Shown in pieces: positions 7,202 through 63,550 of a stretch of 64,000 nucleotides of DNA (its first letter is position 1; each line of letters begins with the position of its first letter). The stretch comes from a virus. A program made the position numbers and the translations under genes. The notes under the pieces were generated by a model. It searched no databases. It worked only from the letters and a program-made list of their open reading frames with translations, and was not told the DNA's origin. The DNA lies in IMG/VR virus record IMGVR_UViG_3300020193_000017, positions 1 to 64,000 of that record; one strand, given 5' to 3'.

Positions 7202-8737
7202 ATGGAAATAAAGAAAATTCTCATTGTGGGTGGTGGAACCGCAGGTGTAATGACCGCAGCACTACTATCAAAAAATTTTAAAGGTAAACTCGATATTACA
7301 GTAATTCATTCAAGTAAGATTGGAACAATCGGAGTTGGTGAGAGTTCTACAGCAAGTCTTCATTCCTTTATGAAGTTTATTGGATTAGAGGAAAGTGATT
7401 GGATGGAGGAGTCTTCAGCGGTTTACAAGTATGGTGGAAGATTTATGGATTGGTCAAATAAAGGTGACCACTTTGTTTTAGTTGAAAACGAGCAAACATT
7501 GTACATGAATAAAAAAACAAACTTGTTACAATATCTTTTGAAATACCATGAGGGTGACCACCAAAAAATCAATGATTTATTTATTTCACCGACACTGGCA
7601 CTTTCTAATTTATCCCCAACAATTGATGAAGAGTTAAGTTATATCCCGACATATAGTAATATCGAAAGTGTTTATAGTTACAACTTTGATGCAATTAAAT
7701 TTGCTGATGTCATCAAAAGAAAAGTTTGTATTCCAAATGGTGTAAAGTTTGTTGAGGGAGAATTAAAGCAAATTAAACTTGATGATTTCGGTTTCATTCA
7801 AGATGTGAAGTTATGGGACCAACAAAAGTTTAAAGCCGATTTATATATTGATTGTTCAGGATTTAAGGGCGCATTAATTGAAGCCGCAATGGGTGAACCA
7901 TTCATATCATTTAGTGATTCTTTATTTTGTGATAAAGCAATTGCCGCACCCATTCAATACAAAGACAAACGTTCCGAAATGGAACCTTATAGTAGATTAT
8001 ATACGATGAATAGCGGTTGGTTGTGGAAGACACCAATCTATGATAGAATTGGTTCTGGTTATGTTTATTCATCAAAATATATTTCAGATGAAGATGCTGA
8101 AAAAGAATTTAGAGAATTCCATGGTGGATATGAAGGTAGTGTTCTTAAAATCAATATGAGGGTCGGTACTCGCGAAAGAGTTGCTGTTAAAAACGTAGTT
8201 GCTTGTGGCTTGGCCGGAGGTTTTGCTGAACCAATGGAATCAACAGGTATTTCAACATTCCAAGGAATTATGTCAACTTTGGCAACAGAACTTGAAAAAA
8301 ATAATTTGAATTATACAAACCAAACGATTGACATAATCAATAGAGATAATATTAACATGATGATTGACATCCGCGATTTTATTCATGTACATTATTTAAC
8401 ATGTCAAAGAGATGATACTCCGTTTTGGAAAGATTGTAAAACCAAATCATTCATACCCGATACCTTAATGCAGAAACTACAAATCATGATTGTTAGGCCA
8501 GCAGAGGAATTATTCAGAGGTAGAATATTTGGTTCTGTAAATTGGTTCCAATGGTTATGGGGTACAGGATTCTTTCATAATAATTCATTTGGTAGAACAC
8601 CAAGGGTAGAGATAAAAGAAAAATATATTCCATATATGCAAAAGAAAATTGATTTAATAAAATATGAAACAAAACTACTAACAGAATTATTACCAAATCT
8701 TTATGACCAATTAAAAGAGAAATATGGAAGAGATTAA
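7202..8737 (+). CDS. Flavin-dependent halogenase (tryptophan-halogenase family)
   Basis: A 511-residue protein of the PrnA/Trp_halogenase family, which uses FADH2, O2 and halide to halogenate an aromatic substrate. Visible motifs are the nucleotide-binding GGGTAG (residues 10-15) after a hydrophobic strand, GTIGVGESS (41-49), the halogenase signature as WLWKTP at 273-278, and FAEPMESTGI near residue 345, which contains the Glu-Ser pair of the active site. The signature is usually WxWxIP, so the Ile to Thr change is unusual. Length fits the family. Related enzymes are known from marine cyanophages (the viral halogenase VirX1). The FADH2 supply would come from the host, as no flavin reductase is seen nearby. 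The substrate cannot be told from sequence. Confidence 0.88.
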   Translation: MEIKKILIVGGGTAGVMTAALLSKNFKGKLDITVIHSSKIGTIGVGESSTASLHSFMKFIGLEESDWMEESSAVYKYGGRFMDWSNKGDHFVLVENEQTLYMNKKTNLLQYLLKYHEGDHQKINDLFISPTLALSNLSPTIDEELSYIPTYSNIESVYSYNFDAIKFADVIKRKVCIPNGVKFVEGELKQIKLDDFGFIQDVKLWDQQKFKADLYIDCSGFKGALIEAAMGEPFISFSDSLFCDKAIAAPIQYKDKRSEMEPYSRLYTMNSGWLWKTPIYDRIGSGYVYSSKYISDEDAEKEFREFHGGYEGSVLKINMRVGTRERVAVKNVVACGLAGGFAEPMESTGISTFQGIMSTLATELEKNNLNYTNQTIDIINRDNINMMIDIRDFIHVHYLTCQRDDTPFWKDCKTKSFIPDTLMQKLQIMIVRPAEELFRGRIFGSVNWFQWLWGTGFFHNNSFGRTPRVEIKEKYIPYMQKKIDLIKYETKLLTELLPNLYDQLKEKYGRD

Positions 8738-8801: not shown

Positions 8802-9131
8802 ATGATTAATTTAATTAGTTATACTATTTTCATTGGTCTTCTATTCTACTTTATTGGTTATAGTAGAATAAAAGACAAACTTTTAATGTACAAGTATAAA
8901 TCCTATTGGACTGATTACAATGTTACAGAATTTTCTGCTTGGATGGCCAAGGCGGCAATAATTATTCCCGGTTTAGTTTTCGGAAAAGAAATATGGTGGT
9001 TACATTTTTTTACTTTATTAACTTCATCACTTTTAATTTGGGCAAGCATGAAAAAGTCACTACCAACACTTATTATTTTCAACACTTTATGGATAATTAT
9101 TTCTTTAACGATTATTCTTAGAAACATTTGA
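8802..9131 (+). CDS. Small multi-pass membrane protein
   Basis: The family is not recognised. This 109-residue protein has about four hydrophobic segments: residues 3-20, about 47-62, 66-85 and 90-107. A basic loop (KDKLLMYKYKSYW) follows the first, so it should sit in the inner membrane. It lies between the halogenase and the outer-membrane barrel and could belong with either. Confidence 0.55.
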   Translation: MINLISYTIFIGLLFYFIGYSRIKDKLLMYKYKSYWTDYNVTEFSAWMAKAAIIIPGLVFGKEIWWLHFFTLLTSSLLIWASMKKSLPTLIIFNTLWIIISLTIILRNI

Positions 9132-9198: not shown

Positions 9199-10137
9199 AT
9201 GAGAAAAACAACTGTTTCGACAATCATTGGGTTTGTTAGAAACAACGTGAGGATTTTATTAGTTCTCTTGGTTATGATGGGTGCAACATCTCTAAACGCA
9301 CAATACAGTAATTCAGCTATAAGTAGAGGCTCGGAACAGGCCCGGGGTGGAGACACCTTAAAAATCAAGGATACCATCACTGGTCCCTTGGATATGGCCG
9401 AAGTTACCGTAACCGCAAAGAAATATCCCCTCCAAACAAAGGTAGGTCCATACAATCAACCTTTATGGAGCACAATGAGAATGTTCCCTTCAACTAGAGT
9501 CTATGTGATGAACCCGCCAGGTTCAGTCATGTATGAGAAGTGGTTTGACATTCGTGACCGCAGGGACGGCGGTCCGACCCAAATTAGAATGAGGGATGAA
9601 TTCACCTTCGGTTTAGGAAAGAGATTACAATTAGACCTGTACTCTCATACCGTTTATGATGGTGAAAATGGCAACAAGACCTTTAGTTGGAGGGGCTTCT
9701 CATGGGAAATTAGATATGCACTTGCCGATTGGGGTAAGATTTGGGGTAACCCAACCATCTATTATGAAATGAAAATGTTAGATGGACGTTGGGGTATCGA
9801 ACCAAAACTATTACTTGGTGATAGAATTGGTAACAAAGGTATTTGGGGTTTGAACTTTATCTATGAAGGTAATCTTGCGGATACCAAAGTAGATAGAAAA
9901 CCTGAATATGCATCAACAGCATCTTATGGACATATCGTTAATAACGATTTAACACTCGGTGTGAGTGGTATGTATCGTCATAATGATTACGGAGGTGGTA
10001 GTAACGAAGTTTACTTAGGTCCACTCATCCAATATCGATTTAATGGTCACGCTTATTTAACCGTTGAGACGATGCCAGGGTTTACACAATCATCTAAGGC
10101 ATCTCGAAGCACAATCATTTTTGCATGGAGATTTTAA
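9199..10137 (+). CDS. Outer-membrane beta-barrel protein with signal peptide
   Basis: A 312-residue protein. The N-terminus has basic residues, a hydrophobic core (ILLVLLVMMGATSL) and a probable signal-peptidase site after NAQ. The mature part carries AEVTVTAKKYP, which resembles a TonB box, then alternating amphipathic strands with many aromatics, and it ends in Phe (IIFAWRF), as outer-membrane barrels do. It is too short for a full TonB-dependent receptor. Its 3' end overlaps the permease gene by 13 bases, so the two are probably translated together. Phage genes for a host outer-membrane barrel are rare. It could aid uptake of a nutrient or block other phages; both ideas are inference. Confidence 0.7.
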   Translation: MRKTTVSTIIGFVRNNVRILLVLLVMMGATSLNAQYSNSAISRGSEQARGGDTLKIKDTITGPLDMAEVTVTAKKYPLQTKVGPYNQPLWSTMRMFPSTRVYVMNPPGSVMYEKWFDIRDRRDGGPTQIRMRDEFTFGLGKRLQLDLYSHTVYDGENGNKTFSWRGFSWEIRYALADWGKIWGNPTIYYEMKMLDGRWGIEPKLLLGDRIGNKGIWGLNFIYEGNLADTKVDRKPEYASTASYGHIVNNDLTLGVSGMYRHNDYGGGSNEVYLGPLIQYRFNGHAYLTVETMPGFTQSSKASRSTIIFAWRF

Positions 10138-11129
10138 TTAAAGGACAAGAGTTCCTTGTATACTTATTATTCATAATGTTCGTAACAGGTATCCTCAAAG
10201 AAAGAGGGTACCTTATGGACTTATTTAGAATTATAACTCAGAAGATTAAATCAAAGAAAGCTGTTGTCTTTCTTGTATCATTATTCGGTGGAATACTTCC
10301 AATACCGGGTAGAGTTGCTCTGTCGGCAAGTATGTTAAACAGCATCGCGCCTGTTGATAATAAGAAGAGAAAGAAGTTTGGCATCATTGATTACCTCGCA
10401 ACCCACCACTATTATTTGTGGTCACCACTTGAAAAAACAGTCATCATCCCGATGTCGGTACTTGGACTAACATATGCTAGTTTCATGTCGCTAATTTGGC
10501 CATTATTATTAATAACAATAATTTATGTCTCATTCTATATCATGTCATTAGGTGATGATGAGATAGATATCGAAGTTCATAACGAACCAATAAATTGGAA
10601 AAATATAGTATTTGTTGTTATCCCATTTCTTTTGACGATTTTAATTAGTTGTTTGACCAGTTATTATTTTATTACGTTCGCGGTTTTTACATTCTATCTT
10701 ATTTCATATTCAAATTCTTGGTATAAATTATTGAATTACATTAATTGGGAATTACTTGTTATAGTTATGATTGTAATAATTCTCGGTAACCTGATAAGTC
10801 ATAATTACGATTATATAGAATCTATTATAAAACAATTCGCTTTAACTAAGAATATCATATTGGTTTCTGTGATTGGATTTCTCGCATCATTTTTACTTGG
10901 TTCTTCCGCGAAGTATGCGGGAATTGTAAGTTTATTAACCGCAACATTTGGGATGAAGTATTTTGTTTTATTCTTTACATTGGAATATTCCGCATACTTA
11001 ATATCCCCAACACATAAATGTTTACCGATAGGTCAAAAGTATTTCCATACAGGATTTATGACTTATTTGAAGGCTCTTATAATTTGGATATCAATTATGA
11101 TAACCTACGCATTATTTACTATCGTATGA
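10125..11129 (+). CDS. DUF401-like integral membrane permease
   Basis: A 334-residue inner-membrane protein with about ten hydrophobic segments. The stretch GGILPIPGRVALSASML followed by LATHHYYLWSPLEKTVIIP matches the layout of DUF401 permeases of the ion-transporter group (Pro/Gly-rich re-entrant loop, then His and Trp before a Pro). The C-terminal half has a second similar region (SSAKYAGIVSLLTATFG, then SPTHKCLP), as expected for an inverted-repeat transporter. It overlaps the barrel gene upstream by 13 bases and the oxygenase gene downstream by ATGA. The cargo is unknown. The barrel-plus-permease order suggests a route across both membranes. Confidence 0.6.
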   Translation: MEILIKGQEFLVYLLFIMFVTGILKERGYLMDLFRIITQKIKSKKAVVFLVSLFGGILPIPGRVALSASMLNSIAPVDNKKRKKFGIIDYLATHHYYLWSPLEKTVIIPMSVLGLTYASFMSLIWPLLLITIIYVSFYIMSLGDDEIDIEVHNEPINWKNIVFVVIPFLLTILISCLTSYYFITFAVFTFYLISYSNSWYKLLNYINWELLVIVMIVIILGNLISHNYDYIESIIKQFALTKNIILVSVIGFLASFLLGSSAKYAGIVSLLTATFGMKYFVLFFTLEYSAYLISPTHKCLPIGQKYFHTGFMTYLKALIIWISIMITYALFTIV

Positions 11130-11686
11130 ATATAAAAGAAAACTTTAAAGACTACGGAAAAGTCGATATTCAACCTTGGTTAGATAAGGTGTCTCAAATT
11201 CCAATCGATGAATGGGATAGATTTACTTGGAGGCAAGATGCTAATCCAATGCATGGAGCATCAAAAACATTGGCGATTATATATGACGATGACTTCAGAC
11301 ACTTTAATGGAACAAAACATGAATTGTATGATAGATTAGATTTTGAAAAACTAATTGACCCGTTGTTAAATAGATTAGAAGAAGAATATAATTGGGGATA
11401 CATTGTTAGAGCGATTTTAGTTAGATTACCCGCAGGTAAATCTATTAAATCACACAAAGATGTTGGTGCGTCATATAATCTTTCACATCGTATCCATATT
11501 CCATTGATTTGTGAATGGGATAAAGTTGAATATGTTGTTGAAAATGAACATAGATACTTTGAAATTGGTCAAATGTTTGAATTAAACAACATGAGACAAC
11601 ATGAAGTAAACAACCATGGTTCAATAGACAGAATAAACCTATTATTTGATTTTGCGGAGTTATCAGGAAAAGGTTGGTGGTACTAG
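11126..11686 (+). CDS. Aspartyl/asparaginyl beta-hydroxylase-like 2-oxoglutarate oxygenase
   Basis: The start is ATG at 11126, overlapping the previous stop (ATGA), which gives 186 residues. The pattern fits the Asp/Asn hydroxylase family: HKD at 110-112 as the HxD iron ligands, HRIHIPL just after it, a second ligand His159 in RQHEVNN, and Arg169 in DRINLL to bind 2-oxoglutarate. These enzymes are Fe(II)-dependent and hydroxylate protein side chains or small molecules. All key residues appear intact. It closes the barrel-permease operon. Its substrate may be a host surface protein or a metabolite; this is open. Confidence 0.75.
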   Translation: MNIKENFKDYGKVDIQPWLDKVSQIPIDEWDRFTWRQDANPMHGASKTLAIIYDDDFRHFNGTKHELYDRLDFEKLIDPLLNRLEEEYNWGYIVRAILVRLPAGKSIKSHKDVGASYNLSHRIHIPLICEWDKVEYVVENEHRYFEIGQMFELNNMRQHEVNNHGSIDRINLLFDFAELSGKGWWY

Positions 11687-19391: not shown

Positions 19392-19574
19392 ATGACAAAC
19401 GAAGAGATTATACAAGAAATGCTTCATGAAGCAGAAAAACTGAGACTAAAAGAAGAGGTAATCAATACAGCTGAGCGTATTTTACAACTAAACCCACGGA
19501 TGGAAAGATTCGAAGCCGTAAAATTCGCTTTGGATAATGCCAAACTACACGCAGGTCTCAATAAATCCATATGA
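19392..19574 (+). CDS. Hypothetical helical protein upstream of thyA
   Basis: A 60-residue protein with helical pattern (NEEIIQEMLHEAEKLRLKEE). Its stop overlaps the thyA start (ATGA), so the two should be translated together. Not recognised. Confidence 0.6.
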   Translation: MTNEEIIQEMLHEAEKLRLKEEVINTAERILQLNPRMERFEAVKFALDNAKLHAGLNKSI

Positions 19575-20737
19575 ACAATTTAGACAGACAATACAAATCG
19601 CTCCTTCAAGATATACTTGATAATGGGGTGGAAAAAAATACACGCAATGGTAAAGTTTTAAGTGTGTTTGGTAGGTCTATTAGGTATAAATTTAAAGATG
19701 GTAAATTTCCATTGTTGACTACCAAGAAAATGCATTTTAAGTCAATAACAACAGAACTTTTGTGGTTCTTACGAGGAGACACATCAATCAAGTATCTTTT
19801 AGATAACGATTGTAATATTTGGACGGGGGACGCCTATAAGAACTACTGTAAAAAAGTTATTCGTGAAAAGGAAATTGTTCGTTATCTAAAATCATACTCA
19901 ACGGACACTGACGGAGTTCCAACTATTGAACTTTATTCTAAAGATGAGTTTATCGAAAGAGTCAAAACTGATGATGAGTTCGCAAAGAAGTGGGCATCCC
20001 TTGGAAAAATTTACGGATTCCAGTGGCGAAGTTGGGGTAAAGACTCCAAACAAGTCCAAAACGAAGATGGTAATAAAGTTTATCATATAACAACAACAGG
20101 TATTGACCAAATATCTGAATTGATTAGGTTGTTAAAAGAAACTCCTGATTCACGCCGACTACTTGTATCAGCGTGGAACGCATCAGATTTACCACATCAA
20201 GTTCTTCCTCCTTGTCATTATGGGTTTCAAGTTTATACAAGAGAGTTGAGTTTAGAAGAAAGATTAATAATAGCGGATAAATTTAATCCCTTAATAAGAG
20301 AAGATTGTTTAACTAAAACACACCACCCTGACGAAACAGAAGAATTGAAATTACAATATAGACACGAGTGGTTAGATTCTTTAGGACCTAATGTTGTTCC
20401 TCAAAGAAGAGCAATCTCTCTAATGTGGTCACAGAGGTCGTGCGATTTACCACTTGGAATCCCAACAAACATAATGTCTTATGCGTTACTACTTATGATG
20501 ATTGCTAAACAAGTTAATATGGTTCCCGATGAATTGATTGGTAATTTAGGGGATTGTCATATCTACCTTAATCAAATTGATGGAGTCAAAGAACAACTAA
20601 CTAGAGAACCATATGAACTGCCAACAGTAAAATTATCTGATAGAATTGTAAATGATTTATCGGAATATACTTTAAATGACATTGTTTTGGAAAATTATCG
20701 GTGTCACCCCAAAATATATTTTCCACTTTCTAATTAA
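19571..20737 (+). CDS. thyA: Thymidylate synthase with two insertions
   Basis: This ThyA-family enzyme makes dTMP from dUMP with methylene-tetrahydrofolate. It has KFPLLTTKKMHFKSI and ELLWFLRGDT at the N-terminus, SRRLLVSAWN, the active-site Cys in LPPCHYGFQ, QRSCDLPLGIP and GDCHIYLNQ near the end. At 388 residues it is longer than the usual 264 or so. About 50 residues are inserted after IWTGDAY and about 70 between FQVYTREL and AISLMWSQR, both on the protein surface in known ThyA folds. The catalytic residues are intact. Phages use it to raise dTMP for replication. It follows a small coupled gene. Confidence 0.95.
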   Translation: MNNLDRQYKSLLQDILDNGVEKNTRNGKVLSVFGRSIRYKFKDGKFPLLTTKKMHFKSITTELLWFLRGDTSIKYLLDNDCNIWTGDAYKNYCKKVIREKEIVRYLKSYSTDTDGVPTIELYSKDEFIERVKTDDEFAKKWASLGKIYGFQWRSWGKDSKQVQNEDGNKVYHITTTGIDQISELIRLLKETPDSRRLLVSAWNASDLPHQVLPPCHYGFQVYTRELSLEERLIIADKFNPLIREDCLTKTHHPDETEELKLQYRHEWLDSLGPNVVPQRRAISLMWSQRSCDLPLGIPTNIMSYALLLMMIAKQVNMVPDELIGNLGDCHIYLNQIDGVKEQLTREPYELPTVKLSDRIVNDLSEYTLNDIVLENYRCHPKIYFPLSN

Positions 20738-62335: not shown

Positions 62336-63550
62336 TCAGCCCTGAAATTCTTCATTGAGTTTTTCCATGGGTGGATTGGTTTCGGGAATCATAGACTCAC
62401 CTAATGGTAACGCCTCCTCCTGTTTTTGTTTTGTGTCCGACTGCATCCCACAACCAGACAATATGTTTATTCCTTGTTTCAGAATATTTTTACTTGCGTT
62501 TAAATCTCTATCGTGATGTTCATTACAAGAAGGACAAGTCCATTCTCTAATAGAAAGATTTAAATCTTGGTTTATCCATCCACAATTAGAACAAGTTTTA
62601 GTAGATGCATAAAATTTATCAATTTTAACAAATGATTTATCATTCCATTTTGACTTATATTCTAACATTGTGTAGAACATATCTAAACCAACATCGGCTA
62701 AGGATTGAGCCAATTTATGATTTTTCATCATATTCTTAATTGACAAATCCTCTACAGATATAATGTCGTGGTTTTTGACAATTTCTGTTGATACTTTATG
62801 TAAGTAATCTTTTCTGATATTAGTTATTTTTTCGTGAACTAAAGATAATTTAATTTTTTGTTTTTGTCTGCTATTACTACCTTTTTGTTTTTTAGATAGT
62901 TGTCTTTGTTCATATTTTAGTTTTTTTAATTTGGTTTTAAGTGATTTGATATTTTTATAGGTTTTTCCATCTGAAAGTATTGCTAAATCTTTGATACCAG
63001 TATCAATACCAACACTTGAACTTGTTTTATCAAATGGTTTGTAATTGACTTTACAAGTTATACTAGCATAATATTTTCCTGTTGTTGATTTGGTAATTGT
63101 TGCAAACGATATTTCACCTTCTAATTCTCTATGTAATTTTATTTTAATTCCATCTTTAAATTTAGGAATTACAAGTTTGCCGTCTTTAACTAATACGTGT
63201 TGGGGTATCTTAAAACTTTGTATATCGTATTTTGACTTAAATACTGGAAACTTATTCCGTTTGCTGAAGAAATTTTTGTATGCTATATCTAAGTTTTTTA
63301 ATGAGGCTTGTAATGATTGGGCATTCACTTCTTTTAACCAAACAAACTCCTCATCTTTTTTAAGTTCAGTTAAGGTTCTCTCATTATCGGAATAGTTAAG
63401 TGAAATTTTTTCATTAAGATATTTTTCTTTACGTTCATTCAAGAAGTGATTAAACACAAATCTACAATAACCAAAGTGTTTACTCAACAAGGGTTCTTGT
63501 TCCTTTGTCGGGTAAATTCGATACTTGTATGACTTGTGTATTAACTTCAT
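62336..63550 (-). CDS. tnpB: Intact TnpB (IS200/IS605 OrfB), RNA-guided nuclease family
   Basis: A 404-residue protein with the typical start (HKSYKYRIYPTKEQE). The RuvC residues are Asp183 (VGIDTGIKD), Glu267 (ISVEDLSI) and Asp349 (HHDRDLNASKNIL). The zinc finger is CSNCG at 320 and CPSC at 339. All look intact. TnpB cuts DNA with a guide from the element's right end. No TnpA is seen here, so it may be immobile and kept for another use. A GACCC/GGGTC hairpin follows its stop. It is coupled by ATGA to a small upstream gene. Confidence 0.9.
   Translation of the reverse strand: MKLIHKSYKYRIYPTKEQEPLLSKHFGYCRFVFNHFLNERKEKYLNEKISLNYSDNERTLTELKKDEEFVWLKEVNAQSLQASLKNLDIAYKNFFSKRNKFPVFKSKYDIQSFKIPQHVLVKDGKLVIPKFKDGIKIKLHRELEGEISFATITKSTTGKYYASITCKVNYKPFDKTSSSVGIDTGIKDLAILSDGKTYKNIKSLKTKLKKLKYEQRQLSKKQKGSNSRQKQKIKLSLVHEKITNIRKDYLHKVSTEIVKNHDIISVEDLSIKNMMKNHKLAQSLADVGLDMFYTMLEYKSKWNDKSFVKIDKFYASTKTCSNCGWINQDLNLSIREWTCPSCNEHHDRDLNASKNILKQGINILSGCGMQSDTKQKQEEALPLGESMIPETNPPMEKLNEEFQG

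Follow-up and report, generated by a model that had tools for sequence, protein, structure and literature searches.

Classical TonB-dependent receptors have 22 strands and a large plug domain, and the phage-borne transport genes that we know of (e.g. pstS) act within one compartment. Among barrels of 12 strands, Tsx is described in a 2024 review as being without a TonB box (PMC11658791). In phages, a putative SusC-type TonB-dependent receptor has been described for the marine megaphage Mar_Mega_1, with the proposal that it raises uptake during infection (PMC9723777). Here we describe a viral locus in which the gene of a predicted 12-stranded outer-membrane barrel, preceded by a TonB-box-like stretch, overlaps the gene of an inner-membrane permease, and we weigh what the two proteins may do together.

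Results

The window, by which we mean the whole stretch of DNA analysed, comprises 64,000 of the 64,880 bases of IMG/VR virus record IMGVR_UViG_3300020193_000017 and has a G+C content of 34%. The locus consists of three successive genes on the + strand: an outer-membrane 12-stranded beta-barrel of 312 aa (9199..10137; from the ORF, an AlphaFold model and 36 aligned phage homologs), an inner-membrane DUF401 (PF04165) permease of 334 aa with a predicted elevator fold (10125..11129; from Pfam, phrog_14035 and a model), and a 2OG-Fe(II) oxygenase of the Asp/Asn beta-hydroxylase family of 186 aa (11126..11686; from PF05118 and its ligand residues). The barrel and permease reading frames overlap by 13 nt (10125..10137, + strand), where the barrel end A-W-R-F-stop meets the permease start M-E-I-L, an overlap that recurs in related pairs. 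Permease and hydroxylase overlap by 4 nt; the mechanical ORF list starts the third ORF at 11018, and the ATG at 11126 yields an ATGA overlap. These coordinates and both overlaps bear out the three ORFs, overlapping by 13 and 4 bases, that a preliminary description of this DNA had claimed.

Tail-fibre-like genes lie upstream of the locus, and other phage families are found alongside it. A tryptophan halogenase of 511 aa (7202..8737, + strand; PF04820, E = 2e-109) is followed by a conserved hydrophobic protein of 109 aa (8802..9131, + strand; no Pfam match), which lies just upstream of the barrel, is 73-77% identical in those relatives that have the gene, and is possibly a third membrane component. 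Elsewhere in the window, a thymidylate synthase of 388 aa (19571-20737) covers about 279 profile positions and so seems to hold an insertion of ~100 residues, and a transposase (62336-63550, - strand; phrog_506, E = 1e-132) lies near the end of the virus record. PADLOC gave no defence match. The T4 late promoter TATAAATA has 12 sites, a chance number, with none just upstream of the barrel-permease pair, and sigma-70-like promoter sites are at chance level too.

The barrel protein begins with a signal peptide (residues 1-34, predicted cleavage before Q35), followed by a variable linker, a TonB-box-like stretch (AEVTVTAKK, residues 67-75), a short segment at 78-109 and the barrel itself at 110-311; everything after AEVTVTAKK is conserved, the short segment included. 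Signal peptide, linker and TonB box together make up a leader (9199..9423, + strand), delimited by profile comparison and by the junction between two near-identical phages described below. From an alignment of 36 phage homologs, AlphaFold predicts 12 antiparallel strands across residues 110-311, with a pLDDT of 82 and a pTM of 0.70 overall and a pLDDT >90 for most of the length of the barrel part. The preliminary description had proposed a signal-peptide barrel with a TonB-box-like segment and had staked the proposal on structure prediction; the fold predicted is indeed a barrel, and a signal peptide and the TonB-box-like motif are present. The best solved fold is FapF (Z = 22.7, 2.6 A, 222 residues), followed by the COG4313 channel 4rl8 (Z = 20.7, 2.8 A, 215 residues). 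The FapF alignment starts at residue 76 of the model, which makes the conserved segment 78-109 a possible short plug. The barrel protein has no Pfam match, PF13557, PF07715 and PF00593 included; of its chromosomal relatives, L138 (Chthoniobacter flavus) lies above the PF13557 cut-off and L164 below it. An NCBIfam scan of the barrel alignment gave single weak matches only, and profile searches of solved-structure sequences with the barrel, permease and receptor alignments gave no match. A TonB-box-like motif precedes the conserved core in 56 of 59 barrel-family sequences, as judged by a loose pattern without chance control for a degenerate motif.

The second gene had been called a DUF401-like permease, and its match to PF04165 stands above the Pfam cut-off (E = 4e-10; 40 bits against a cut-off of 24; residues 11-333), covering profile positions 60-388 of 393 with an N-terminus shorter than that of the profile. 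The permease also matches phrog_14035 (E = 3e-81). A model of moderate confidence (pLDDT 77), built from an alignment with three cyanophage rows left out, matches AtDiT2.1 (Z = 22.4), NaS1 (22.3), TRAP SiaQM (20.6) and VcINDY (19.8) across ~330 of its 334 residues, that is, over the whole chain; Pho90, NaCT and ArsB are also among the matches at Z of about 20-22, against ~5 for unrelated chains. The elevator fold predicted for the permease, shared with DASS, TRAP and ArsB structures, places it in the ion-transporter superfamily. Small anions are the cargo of most of the fold-matched transporters, and three basic residues, R63, K263 and K298, do not vary among 25 phage homologs of the permease, which fits an anion cargo without naming which. 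A holin was considered and rejected, as the Phage_holin_5_1 match (E = 0.55) is below the cut-off and the fold search contradicts it.

Relatives of the barrel and the permease were fetched from IMG/VR, and pairing was counted for permease homologs of at least about 50% identity in loci with enough upstream sequence. In 89 of 89 viral loci so judged, from contigs that are related and partly redundant, the gene immediately preceding the permease encodes an outer-membrane protein, which is a barrel in 74 and a full TonB-dependent receptor in 15. When the loci are clustered at 98% permease identity, none of the resulting 39 clusters is without an outer-membrane partner. Of the 74 barrel-permease pairs, 70 overlap by exactly 13 nt, and because of this recurrence the arrangement is well beyond chance. 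In the related phages, then, barrel and permease form an almost obligatory pair. Among more distant phages, L121 has the order reversed, permease then barrel, with the two still adjacent, and in L103 the genes are separated by ~2.3 kb. A barrel without a permease occurs in contig L076 (119 kb) and in the short contigs L116 and L118. In the last two (L116 3717-5816, L118 7124-9227) the lone barrel adjoins a chorismate-mutase-like gene, a thioesterase-like gene and a small signal-peptide protein.

The two types of outer-membrane partner have been exchanged repeatedly. Downstream, the loci L013 and L014 share 99.96% identity across 9,002 nt, and upstream 98.5% across 6.4 kb, yet at the same spot between these stretches one has a barrel and the other a 600-residue receptor; the junction falls near the end of the leader segment, which is kept up to the TonB box. 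Alignment between the barrel and phage receptor profiles is likewise limited to residues 13-77, which comprise signal peptide, linker and TonB-box region. Since signal peptide and TonB-box region are all that the profiles share, an exchange leaves in place the segment that would contact TonB. A tree of permease DNA from the same partly redundant contigs requires at least six partner changes, counting well-supported branches only, and both partner types occur within four clusters of >98% identical permeases. The substitute receptors (L013, L026, L316 and others) match the Pfam Plug family below the cut-off as single sequences; in profile comparison they align with genuine Bacteroidota TonB-dependent receptors over 527 columns (probability 99.4, E = 2e-21), so that homology to genuine receptors extends across plug and barrel. 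The comparison receptor L250 is a TonB-dependent receptor by Pfam. A second group of phage receptors (L316-L322), about 50% identical, lies on other viral contigs and there, too, immediately precedes the permease.

DUF401 permeases that are 35-38% identical to that of the window over the whole chain occur in cyanomyoviruses (S-H25, metaG-MbCM1, S-CAM4, ACG-2014j), where they are annotated as hypothetical. No barrel or receptor lies within about 3 kb in 80 sampled marine cyanophage-type permease loci, and the barrel family is absent throughout three complete cyanophage records. The pair is therefore specific to the phage group of the window, and the permease is not in all cases dependent on having its own outer-membrane partner. 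Permease homologs with no such partner had been named in the preliminary description as grounds for abandoning its reading; they do exist in cyanophages, but none was found in the window's own phage group. Upstream of the 80 cyanophage permeases, with family labels read from the sequences apart from record annotation, are genes for a P4H-like oxygenase (17), a MazG-like protein (16), a PhD-like antitoxin (6) and another 2OG oxygenase (5). In S-H25 (L001 5775-8002) and metaG-MbCM1 (L002 5482-7996) a P4H-like 2OG oxygenase precedes the permease with an 8-nt overlap, and 2OG oxygenases of different families recur next to the DUF401 phage permease.

PF05118-related enzymes hydroxylate Asp or Asn, or lipids (LpxO, OlsC). 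The hydroxylase of the window belongs to this family by its match (E = 3e-12) and by its HxD...H...R ligand set, H110, D112, H159 and R169, which is as intact as had been claimed; its match to OlsC is very weak. Its place in the core of the proposed three-gene unit is not supported. Across 36 long loci, hydroxylase and halogenase are both present in five, which with the window included represent three lineages, and both missing in 31, with no locus having one alone. Because the hydroxylase is present only where the halogenase is, we treat it as lying outside the core of the pair: it is an accessory that occurs alongside the tryptophan halogenase and that most loci lack. The genes of the two enzymes flank the barrel-permease pair and yet co-occur. 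In most relatives the halogenase position is occupied instead by genes for a radical-SAM protein and for an enzyme in which several cysteines are conserved, along with a methyltransferase-like gene (L004 4277-6967; also L006, L032, L050 and L114), and L032 has an extra 2OG oxygenase.

A genome scan recovered 42 chromosomal barrel-family loci, mostly from Planctomycetota, Verrucomicrobiota, Myxococcota and relatives. In 11 of these, two of them near copies, the gene immediately next to the barrel, on its strand, is a TonB_C gene (for the seven examined with Pfam, E = 1e-10 to 1e-27), and in 31 there is no adjacent tonB; the sequence of the 42 loci taken together holds one further TonB_C ORF. 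Because the tonB neighbourhood was not part of the search, it provides independent support for TonB coupling. From the motif, this neighbourhood and the exchange with a true receptor, we infer that the barrel is TonB-coupled. No TonB_C protein is found in the window or in the phage loci, so the motor must be that of the host.

A bacterial genome with the same pair, sought as a guide to the cargo, was not found: by BLAST, the permease is beside the barrel in none of the 42 chromosomal loci, and 17 of 20 genomes bearing a chromosomal barrel have no DUF401 match. DUF401 is all but missing from the Bacteroidota: of 395 sampled, 4 exceed the cut-off, each with a weak partial match, and in the 193 genomes of the phylum around genome G023 nothing matched at E = 1e-15 or above the cut-off. 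The family is too rare in the sampled genomes for its bacterial neighbours to have taught us a cargo. Among the nearest TonB-dependent receptors, one lies by an alkaline-phosphatase-family gene on an Emticicia plasmid, and the neighbour of receptor L252 looks like a beta-propeller protein; both leads are too thin to name a substrate.

Discussion

The structure of the pair, as read from sequence and model, and the pairing itself are strong. Taken together, these observations make it probable that barrel and permease are a phage-carried import line, composed of a host-TonB-coupled channel and an inner-membrane anion transporter, with the fold of the permease and the TonB link suggesting cargo and direction. 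The barrel would be exported to the outer membrane, where its TonB box would engage the TonB-ExbBD motor of the host; the motor would open a short N-terminal plug and so let a small, scarce substrate enter the periplasm. From there the permease would carry the substrate, probably a small anion or a complex of one, into the cytoplasm, where it would serve phage replication. The 13-nt overlap would couple translation so that both halves are made together, and the hydroxylase and halogenase would be a separate enzyme accessory of the same variable locus. The superfamily of the permease comprises dicarboxylate, sulfate, phosphate and sialic-acid carriers, from which we infer an anion as cargo; a carboxylate is our first guess and phosphate our second. 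The preliminary description had proposed that the phage brings its own route across both membranes. Several lines point to the pair as such a route, the third gene being no part of its core, and of the two purposes suggested there, feeding the infected cell is favoured over changing its surface.

Phages can encode porins, as PA-2 does with Lc. A change of surface, or superinfection exclusion, would have the barrel or receptor mask, replace or mimic a host receptor, with the permease as a passenger. The outer-membrane part does swap between two unrelated types in a manner that looks like diversifying selection, and TonB receptors are classical phage receptors (PMC11658791). However, the swapped parts all stay positioned beside the same permease, which is never without an outer-membrane partner in this group, and a mask would leave the kept TonB box unexplained. 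We therefore regard this explanation as unlikely.

Export is the next alternative. A product such as a toxic anion, or a metabolite bearing a halogen or a hydroxyl group, would leave the cell by way of the permease first and the barrel second. Two members of the ion-transporter superfamily, ArsB and MtrF, are exporters, the best match of the barrel, FapF, is a secretion channel, and modifying enzymes share the locus in many relatives. Nevertheless, the TonB link and the use of a genuine TonB receptor as a substitute point inward, and the pair is retained where the modifying enzymes differ or are missing, which makes export distinctly improbable. That the two are independent cargo genes, brought together in a variable tail-region locus but separate in function, would suit the lone permeases of cyanophages with their varied neighbours and the lone barrels of a few contigs and of bacterial genomes, most of them without DUF401, but is very unlikely given 89 linked loci of 89, the constant overlap of 13 nt, a pairing that outlasts one exchange of the outer-membrane gene after another, and the reversed order in L121 with both genes still adjacent.

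If the pair is an import line, some phages would remake the path of nutrients into the cell that they infect, from its outer surface inward, by way of the host TonB motor. The barrel/receptor exchange in near-identical phages is a natural experiment that shows which parts can stand in for each other, and the bacterial relatives linked to tonB suggest that there is a class of TonB-coupled barrels still to be characterised. More tentatively, the barrel could found a new class of TonB-energised 12-strand transporters with a very short plug, one that phages would have acquired and paired with an anion carrier as a complete and exchangeable import line across two membranes; relatives of the barrel class occur in several bacterial groups, Planctomycetota and Verrucomicrobiota among them, often with tonB alongside (11/42).

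Comparison with known systems

Like TonB-dependent receptors of the FhuA, BtuB, FecA and SusC type, the window barrel is a predicted outer-membrane barrel, and it has an N-terminal stretch that resembles a TonB box. By contrast with their 22 strands and large plug (PF07715, PF00593), it has 12 strands and no recognisable plug domain, and is thus not a TonB-dependent receptor of that build. The 12-stranded fold is shared with FapF, the Pseudomonas amyloid exporter, and with the COG4313/PF13557 Phenol_MetA_deg channels, although identity is 14% to FapF and 8% to the COG4313 channel, and to our knowledge a TonB box and tonB neighbours are not among the features of these families. In the open-access papers we found no report of a coupled outer- and inner-membrane phage pair or of a TonB-linked 12-stranded barrel, and both appear to be new. 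Mar_Mega_1, which we liken to the present locus by description, carries a putative receptor, and the passage that describes it is silent on a coupled inner-membrane permease and on a small barrel (PMC9723777). The cyanophage DUF401 permeases resemble the window permease along the whole chain but differ in having no outer-membrane partner and varied neighbours. With DUF401 at large (PF04165/TIGR00529), the window permease shares both fold and sequence match; what sets it apart is that its gene is joined to that of an outer-membrane protein.
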